NCBI RefSeq assembly: GCF_024346875.1
Contig: NZ_AP024872.1
Coordinates: 1 to 64,000 of the forward strand
DNA from: Vibrio gallicus
GTDB lineage: Bacteria > Pseudomonadota > Gammaproteobacteria > Enterobacterales > Vibrionaceae
Direction: 5' to 3'
DNA: 64,000 nt
Every line of letters begins with the position of its first letter. The first letter of the stretch is position 1. Below are positions 25,041 through 37,399 of the stretch, piece by piece. The position numbers and the translations under genes were made by a program. The notes beneath the pieces were generated by a model. The model did no database searches. It was not told where the DNA came from and worked only from the letters and a program-made list of their open reading frames with translations.

Positions 25041-25044
25041 ACGA

Positions 25045-25073
25045 AAAAAAGCAAGCCATAGGCTTGCTTTTTT
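25045..25073 (-). terminator. Terminator of cold-shock gene
   Basis: Stem AAAAAAGCAAGCC/GGCTTGCTTTTTT, A/T-flanked on both sides so usable on either strand, 15 bp after the csp stop. Confidence 0.9.
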
Positions 25074-25087
25074 CTAAAAAGGTAAGC

Positions 25088-25300
25088 TTAGATAACAGTA
25101 ACGTTAGCAGCTTGAAGACCTTTTTGACCTTGCTCAACTTCGAAAGACACTTTTTGGCCTTCAGCAAGAGTACGGAAACCGTCAGAAGCGATTGCACGGA
25201 AGTGAACGAATACGTCAGCACCGCCGTTATCTTGAGAAATGAAACCGAAACCTTTCTCTTCGTTAAACCATTTTACTGAACCAGTTGCTTTATTTGACAT
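25088..25300 (-). CDS. CspA-family cold-shock protein
   Basis: A 70-residue cold-shock domain protein. RNP1 is KGFGFISQ and RNP2 is VFVHF. It binds single-stranded RNA and DNA and melts mRNA structure at low temperature. An AAGGGA ribosome site lies upstream. The gene-free stretch upstream (about 370 bp) leaves room for the long structured leader typical of cspA mRNAs. Confidence 0.95.
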
Positions 25301-25672
25301 GATATGTCCCTTGATGTTTTTTGATTAAATTATATCGCCATTTGCGATTGAACTGAGTTTAAGAGTTATCTAAATTTAAGATGAAGCTAAGGGATCACAG
25401 AGGTTTACAACAACTACGAAGGAATTCTCAAGACTTACTTTTACTTACTGTTCTTAAATAACTCTACGTTACAGAGCGAGGGTGATATTACAGCAGTTTC
25501 GATCATTGTAAAGCCTTATTTTTATTTTGTTACACCTTTATGGGCTAAACACCTATGAAATTAAGCTCTTATGCTATTTTCAATTAATTTTTGAATATTA
25601 TTCAAAAATTACGCTGTTTATTCGATAGTTATAAGATTCTATTATGCATCCATACCAGTGAGGCGTTGAGCC
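25301..25672. other. Divergent intergenic region with probable csp leader
   Basis: No gene seen. On the minus strand it probably encodes a long 5' leader of the cold-shock mRNA; the start point cannot be fixed by eye. The plus-strand promoter of the quinol-monooxygenase-like gene should be near 25560-25650. Confidence 0.45.
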
Positions 25673-33845: not shown

Positions 33846-36044
<2,199 letters not shown>

Positions 36045-36157
36045 CTAGTATTAGCTAAATTTAGAGTTCGAACTCAACATAGCATGACTAATCAGCGCAA
36101 TGGTTTATAAAAAGTTTAGTAGTACAAGAAAATACAAATTTCATGATGTAGCAAGCA

Positions 36158-36190
36158 AAAGAAAACCCCACCCGGTTACCCGAGTGGGGT
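36158..36190 (-). terminator. Terminator of the CsrB-type RNA
   Basis: On the minus strand ACCCCAC...GTGGGGT with inner CGGGT/ACCCG pairing (loop AACC region), then TTTTCTTTT. Confidence 0.9.
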
Positions 36191-36442
36191 CTATTTCTCT
36201 TTGCAGCAATCCGGCTACTAAAAGTGCTCCCTGCATCATTCCTTGATAGTGGTTAAATTCCGTTAACCTAAATCCCTGTCATCGCCATCCTAGCGGTGTC
36301 CATTTGAGCCTGTCATCCTGACTGGCAAACTCTATCCTAGAGTGTCACTTCCATGCTGATAACTAATCCTAAGTCATCAAATCTTCATCCTGAAGATACC
36401 TAATCCATTAGGTTTTGTTCCATTCCTGCCAACATCCTGTCG
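36158..36442 (-). ncRNA. CsrB-family regulatory RNA (CsrA sponge)
   Basis: The minus strand carries 16 GGA triplets in about 285 nt, eight as AGGA. Many lie in hairpin loops with perfect stems: ATCTTC-AGGAT-GAAGAT (36381-36397), CTCT-AGGAT-AGAG, GTC-AGGAT-GAC, CGCT-AGGAT-GGCG and CCTAA-TGGA-TTAGG. The RNA ends in a strong terminator at 36158-36190. There is no ORF. This is the architecture of CsrB/C/D, which titrate the translational regulator CsrA (VarS/VarA-CsrA circuit of vibrios). A promoter and a distal activator box are listed separately. Which paralogue it is cannot be told. Confidence 0.9.
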
Positions 36443-36448
36443 ACACAT

Positions 36449-36476
36449 TTAGTATCGCTGTTTGAGTGGGAAACAA
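36449..36476 (-). promoter_or_regulatory. Predicted promoter of CsrB-type RNA
   Basis: Minus-strand TTGTTT (36471-36476), 16-bp spacer and TACTAA (36449-36454) would start transcription near 36442, just before the first GGA motif. Elements are imperfect, as expected for an activator-dependent promoter. Confidence 0.5.
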
Positions 36477-36603
36477 CAATAGGGTGGGTTAGATACTTTT
36501 TAATATCTATTAATGTAATTCTAATATTAATCAATAAAAACAATATCTTATGTTGTTATGTGCCTATTGTATGTGCTGGTTTTGCTACGATCTCTGCCTT
36601 CTT

Positions 36604-36621
36604 TGTAAGATATCTCGCACA
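36604..36621. promoter_or_regulatory. Candidate VarA/GacA (UvrY) binding box
   Basis: TGTAAGATATCTCGCACA fits the upstream activating sequence TGTAAGN6CTTACA with the left half perfect and the right half 4 of 6. It lies about 165-180 bp upstream of the predicted RNA start, the usual position for csrB/rsm genes. Confidence 0.6.
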
Positions 36622-36815
36622 AAGTAACGAGTGAAGTGCCCGATAAGGCGCTTCACAATACGAAATGATGATAATAGTGTGAGCATCGGCGCATAATGGT
36701 AAGTATTGAGGATACTTATTGGTTAGGATCTCTATTATTCAAGCGCATACATCAGGGTTGATTTTAACTTCAGTCACTAGCAGGGTGTATTTGTATATTA
36801 ATAGAGGCGATAACA

Positions 36816-37051: not shown

Positions 37052-37399
37052 CTACACCTCTAACACTAACTTTCCAATATGCTGTTTTTGTATGAAGATT
37101 TCCTGCATTTCATTAATTGCCTGCAGGGGCAAACTCTTGGCGACGATAGGCGTAACTTTTCCAGATTCAATCCAGCCAATAAGGTTTTGAAATACTCTCT
37201 CATCGAGCACTGTACAACCAAAGAAGCTTAGGTCTTTGAGATAAAGGGTTCTTACGTCTAACTCTACAAGCGCACCACCTATTGCACCTGAAACGGCGTA
37301 GCGACCTTTAGGTTGCAGCACTTCTAGGAATTCAGGCCACTTTTCTCCGGCTACTAAATCAATAACCACATTTACGCTATTCTCACTGAGGGTTATTTA
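37052..37399 (-). pseudogene. C-terminal remnant of a zinc-binding/quinone oxidoreductase
   Basis: The frame reads ITLSENSVNVVIDLVAGEKWPEFLEVLQPKG and on to KQHIGKLVLEV, the last 115 or so residues of an MDR-superfamily reductase (cofactor domain end). Both the GroES-like domain and the nucleotide-binding glycine motif are missing. Upstream the frame meets a stop at about 37400, exactly where an AGGACACACACC repeat half-site begins. The only in-frame start is a GTG at 37369 without a ribosome site. It is a decayed gene whose 5' part was lost at a repeat junction. Confidence 0.8.

Follow-up and report, generated by a model that had tools for sequence, protein, structure and literature searches.

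A CsrB-family small RNA gene upstream of katG in Vibrio gallicus and a candidate CsrC-like RNA on chromosome 1

The window analysed in this study, the first 64,000 nucleotides of the smaller contig (989,994 bases) of the two-contig, 3,518,157-base Vibrio gallicus genome (G000), carries on its minus strand a small RNA gene of a known type, Vibrio CsrB, which is a real yet ordinary member of that family. Judged from sequence comparison, the gene very probably encodes a CsrB-family sRNA that is activated by VarA and binds CsrA, and is one of four CsrB-type copies in the genome. The Rfam CsrB model (RF00018) matches it over its full length from 36462 to 36154 (-) with 82.3 bits (E = 2.4e-20) against a gathering score of 71. 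The family assignment proposed in an earlier note on this DNA is thereby borne out, and its placement on chromosome 2 fits the smaller contig. The features discussed below are listed in Table 1.

Table 1. Coordinates of the window csrB gene, its neighbour and related RNA loci (positions without prefix are those of the window; C1 and C2, the two contigs)
Feature	Position	Strand	Basis or remark
CsrB-family sRNA, inferred transcript ~288 nt, 16 GGA	36158..36445	-	Rfam RF00018, conserved -10 box, predicted fold
Intrinsic terminator, 13-pair stem and T-run	36163..36192	-	stem pairs compensated across orthologues
Putative -10 hexamer GATACT, 17-nt spacer	36451..36456	-	ATACT identical in 23/23 aligned rows, assigned by eye
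Putative -35 hexamer TTGTTG	36474..36479	-	ATTG identical in 23/23 aligned rows, assigned by eye
VarA/UvrY (GacA)-type box TGTGCGAGATATCTTACA	36604..36621	-	sequence match, spacing kept in orthologues
katG (catalase-peroxidase), next gene downstream, beyond the terminator and outside the sRNA gene	33846..36035	-	Pfam peroxidase
CsrB copy (locus L116)	C2:940158-940467	-	80.3 bits (Rfam CsrB), above cut-off
CsrB copy	C1:2457514-2457829		79.4 bits (Rfam CsrB), above cut-off
CsrB-type copy, divergent (locus L117)	C2:236045-236327	-	37.2 bits, below cut-off
Fifth CsrB-model match	C1:84816-85028		25.7 bits, below cut-off
GGA-rich RNA, weakest CsrB match	C1:84839-85022 (own model) = L119:8840-9022	+ of L119	conserved, syntenic

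The minus-strand segment 36440-36154 (287 nt) contains 16 GGA motifs and is the GGA-richest stretch of this length on both strands of the window, the runners-up having 11 (plus strand) and 10 (minus strand). This count was reached in none of 5000 mononucleotide shuffles (mean 7.0) and in 49 of 5000 dinucleotide shuffles, the stricter null (mean 10.7; p ~0.01); taken alone, the excess over dinucleotide shuffles is modest. The predicted minimum free energy fold of the 285-nt core places 12 of the 16 motifs in hairpin loops, and the predicted fold of 36445-36158 is more stable than 200 of 200 shuffles (z = -4.29). No ORF of at least 60 aa, the length from which ORFs were listed, overlaps the RNA, and a terminator scan of 36030-36700 returned only the one given in Table 1 (shuffle mean 0.3). 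These results agree with the earlier description of 16 GGA in about 285 nt of minus strand free of ORFs, of GGA in the loops of perfect small stems (ATCTTC-AGGAT-GAAGAT is present as stated) and of a strong terminator. The limits first proposed, 36158-36621, hold as the span from terminator to VarA-type box, but the likely 5' end of the RNA lies at ~36445, at neither 36621 nor 36462, the latter being the start of the Rfam model match somewhat upstream.

The start at ~36445, where the sequence reads (T)GTCGACAGG, was placed by visual inspection, guided by the conserved -10 box; the putative promoter pair was missed by a consensus promoter scan. The VarA-type box has no mismatches and is the lone match in the window at one mismatch or fewer, where shuffles average 2.2. 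It is identical at 16 of 18 positions to the E. coli csrB inverted repeat, and its centre is ~168 bp before the inferred RNA start, compared with -183/-182 for the E. coli UvrY box TGTGAGAGATCTCTTACA in the portion of PMC4682653 available. The E. coli csrB gene occupies a different genomic position, and its likeness to the window RNA was assessed on motifs only. Among 26 aligned csrB rows, 25 have the box, 24 of them at 156-168 nt before the aligned start and the remaining one, that of the divergent copy at C2:236k in the same genome, at 133 nt in a partial alignment. The single row lacking it comes from G221, where it is a partial second copy; in G191 the last base of the box is mismatched.

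In the Csr system, the RNA gene is switched on by VarS-VarA and the RNA titrates CsrA. The genome contains a single gene over the cut-off for CsrA (C1:2034500-2034655, 89.6 bits), a single match for VarA (C1:1084894-1085538, 426 bits, with an intact ORF of 214 aa) and a single match for VarS/BarA (C1:2059093-2061855, 1377 bits), which together with the VarA box support the operation of this pathway. VarS would activate VarA, and phosphorylated VarA most likely binds the 18-bp box ~168 bp upstream and would activate transcription at the -35/-10 pair. The resulting RNA of ~288 nt is predicted to fold into small hairpins presenting GGA in their loops and could bind several CsrA dimers, so that the mRNA targets of CsrA would be freed. 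The window RNA thus most likely soaks up CsrA. Its transcription, VarA control and CsrA binding are what we infer from the observed sequence, predicted fold, conservation, box and terminator and from the presence of the CsrA, VarA and VarS genes.

A structure alignment of 23 rows (22 distinct), comprising the window copy and the best matches from 21 other genomes or records, shows that the GGA loops are conserved in relatives: 14 GGA columns persist in 90% or more of the rows, each of which has 16-19 GGA. Standard pairs fill 97.9% of the cells of the 88 predicted pairs, and 14 of the 88 are compensated by changes on both sides, although these counts lean towards the consensus structure because it was derived from the same related rows, without a shuffle control. 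Searching the genus with the csrB stretch of the window recovers some csrB from 225 of 227 genomes. Its closest relatives are those of G124 (two copies, 91 and 88% identity), G080 (87%) and G123 (85%), and since the alaS-csrA region puts the same three genomes first (82, 79 and 78%, respectively), the window csrB follows descent. In G124 (L207, C2:457000-474000), the two window-type copies are ~4.8 kb apart and both have VarA boxes.

An 80-row csrB tree, from which the csrC-like RNA of this genome, the similar ones of G001 and G036, and the partial THAF190c and second G221 sequences were dropped, groups the window copy with those of G080, G123 and the two of G124 (100/97). That group nests in a 27-row clade (100/100) that takes in every one of the 18 rows of a single synteny group; according to a warning of the tree program, long branches meet this clade. 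The branch of the C2:236k copy is very long, and its placement is unsure. In the synteny group, to which V. campbellii belongs, csrB is surrounded by RimK-like and/or PhoX-like genes together with the neighbours of these (names by eye), none of which occur around the window, G124, G080 and G123 copies. A plasmid collection with chromosome II records gave seven matches, six in Vibrio and one in Photobacterium, including V. campbellii (97% coverage at 82.7%); of three records inspected, two annotate no gene in the csrB stretch. Carriage by a phage was considered and rejected, as the phage collection gave no match.

Five places in the genome match the Rfam CsrB model at E <= 0.001, with the window copy scoring best. 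Four of them are CsrB-type copies, three above the cut-off and three on the smaller contig. The VarA boxes of these four are identical to the E. coli repeat at 15-17 of 18 positions; the fifth match has no such box, reaching 12 of 18, a level also attained by random stretches. The divergent copy has 11 GGA and the VarA box TGTAAGAGATCGCTTACA. The copy at C2:940158-940467 clusters in the tree with one from G015 (100/100) and also, at 100/99, with the recQ-uvrD copy of chromosome 1; it looks like a lineage-specific duplicate. According to the portion of PMC6262261 available, vibrios usually have two to three csrB copies, and V. tasmaniensis and P. profundum each have four; the four CsrB-type copies found here exceed the usual number, and the csrB neighbours are not shared with the published Vibrio loci. 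Genomes with four CsrB-model matches are not unusual in the genus: 11 of 36 same-genus relatives have this number, three of them (G001, G025 and G036) by counting the csrC-like RNA. The window csrB is a well-supported addition to a 3.5-Mb Vibrio genome with four CsrB-type copies. Like CsrB, CsrC and CsrD of V. cholerae and csrB1-4 of V. tasmaniensis, as described in excerpts of PMC6550530 and PMC6262261, respectively, the window RNA belongs to the Rfam CsrB family with GGA hairpins, an upstream VarA box and several copies per genome, but its 16 GGA compare with 28 in V. cholerae CsrB and 23 each in CsrC and CsrD (PMC6550530, in part).

With three other CsrB-type copies present, one of them clearly divergent, and with window neighbours unlike those of most orthologues examined, the window RNA might be a degenerate, non-functional copy, relocated on chromosome 2 and now in decay. 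We consider this very unlikely, because the window copy is the highest-scoring CsrB match of the genome, retains its box, promoter pair, GGA loops and terminator, and is more similar to the G124 copies (91 and 88%) than the alaS-csrA region is to that of G124 (82%).

The earlier note had also regarded the position beside katG as worth comparing with other vibrios, and this neighbourhood turned out to carry no evident meaning. Neither katG nor any other specific neighbour from the window occurs in 82 fetched loci around CsrB-model or csrB blast hits (60 + 20 + 2, up to 18 kb each, four from this genome and three of the csrC-like type), eight of which match only a histidine kinase of the window at 23-32% identity. 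Conversely, among the 80 best katG loci (flanks up to 3 kb) there is not one with the window csrB. Because the pairing is absent from both sets, the katG address of the window csrB is probably recent. The window KatG is 79% identical to that of V. profundi and 76% to that of Vibrio sp. Of7-15, and just 61-62% identical to those of the nearest relatives G124, G080 and G123, which suggests that it probably represents a different katG lineage from theirs. Joint transfer of csrB and katG found no support, since the order of csrB relatedness to these three genomes equals that of alaS-csrA and their katG genes, besides being this dissimilar, are placed elsewhere.

Alternatively, the RNA could belong to katG as a cis-acting 5' leader and not be an sRNA of its own, as it is on the same strand and ends ~120 nt upstream of the katG start, and AGGAT lies within the katG ribosome site. 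This reading is even less probable, and we regard it as extremely unlikely: a strong terminator separates the RNA from katG, and its orthologues adjoin other genes. The katG ribosome site itself, 36033-36049 (-), reads ACTAGGATGCAGATATG and includes a CsrA-type GGA, a motif common in ribosome sites; control of katG by CsrA may be possible. Least probable of all, to a negligible degree, is a small protein-coding gene, in favour of which no point was found and against which stand the lack of an ORF of at least 60 aa, indels of one or two bases among orthologues and the conserved RNA structure.

The RNA behind the weakest CsrB match, on chromosome 1, does not look like a CsrB copy and is a more novel result than the window RNA. 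Besides the four CsrB-type RNAs, we favour with moderate confidence a fifth Csr RNA that would be a direct descendant of csrC at the ancestral locus polA-spf-yihA-[csrC]-yihI-hemN. The gene order in this genome is polA-Spot 42-yihA-cytochrome c4-[RNA]-methyltransferase-yihI-DUF2489-hemN (proteins were named by eye, and matches to the E. coli stretch bear out PolA, YihA, YihI and HemN), and that of E. coli MG1655 is polA-spf-yihA-csrC-yihI-hemN. The RNA thus occupies the csrC position between yihA and yihI, flanked in Vibrio by two extra genes for cytochrome c4 and the methyltransferase. In the available part of PMC3295665, csrC of E. coli is noted as lying downstream of spf, and a different RNA, VSsrna24, is described beside spf.

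A model of this RNA built from 17 Vibrio sequences (R1) finds matches at E <= 0.001 in 185 of the 227 Vibrio genomes, a count that includes the 17. At least one neighbour gene is present in 42 of 42 fetched loci of this type (30 from among the best blastn matches and 12 from among the best order-wide R1 matches, some genomes occurring twice). Across 197 genomes of the order, 36 were matched, 24 of them outside the genus; 20 of these 24 were fetched, of which 16 have the same gene neighbourhood and four do not. The RNA has three consensus hairpins with GGA in their loops, with 5 of 24 pairs compensated.

Sequence likeness to E. coli CsrC is less straightforward. R1 finds csrC of E. coli with 31.8 bits (E = 1.4e-6, such E-values being rough), and the same search gives 25.0 and 22.0 bits to two other places in L119 and 14.4 bits to the window csrB. 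When the terminator is left out (model R2), csrC receives just 8.4 bits (E = 2.8), which is not significant, and two CsrB copies of this genome score higher (15.0 and 12.7 bits); the sequence evidence is therefore mainly the shared terminator stem. Compared with E. coli CsrC, the chromosome 1 RNA (not the window RNA) shares gene order and terminator stem, but falls below the Rfam CsrC cut-off as well as lacking a significant match beyond the terminator. The Rfam CsrC model (RF00084) passes its gathering score in none of the 227 Vibrio genomes, and the csrC-like RNA is below Rfam cut-offs wherever scanned. Some match at E <= 0.001 was found in 75 of the 227, many of them short and on the terminator part, and because only some are full-length ones at the csrC-like locus, these matches are weak evidence. 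The case for CsrC rests on position, GGA hairpins and the terminator stem.

A csrC-type box, like the one located 168 nt before the annotated E. coli csrC start, is found with 13-15 of 18 identities in 15 of 37 scored Vibrio rows (four further rows were left unscored); in 13 of the 15 it lies between -272 and -304 relative to the conserved hairpin. Outside the genus, 5 of 16 syntenic loci have it with 14-16 of 18. At least 13 of 18 is also reached by 43 of 1200 random stretches, and V. gallicus itself scores 11. The E. coli csrC box may be the UvrY site mapped in E. coli, which fits the region given in the available portion of PMC4682653.

Literature searches found no description of the chromosome 1 RNA in Vibrio. 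In the accessible part of PMC6262261, csrC of V. cholerae is treated as a csrB copy, and extra Csr RNAs were found by a similar route in Pseudoalteromonas, according to excerpts of PMC11882849. If the proposed descent is true, the chromosome 1 RNA would be a true CsrC, and models of the Vibrio Csr system drawn from CsrB-type RNAs alone would be incomplete; many vibrios would then have a further CsrA antagonist beyond the CsrB-type RNAs deleted in published strains.

Two other features of the window were observed. A 105-aa ORF at 37052-37369 (-) corresponds to positions 27-134 of the 134 of a zinc-binding dehydrogenase domain, with the N-terminal half missing, and is possibly a gene remnant. 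At 25043-25464 (-), the Rfam cspA thermoregulator model gives a match of 109.1 bits.
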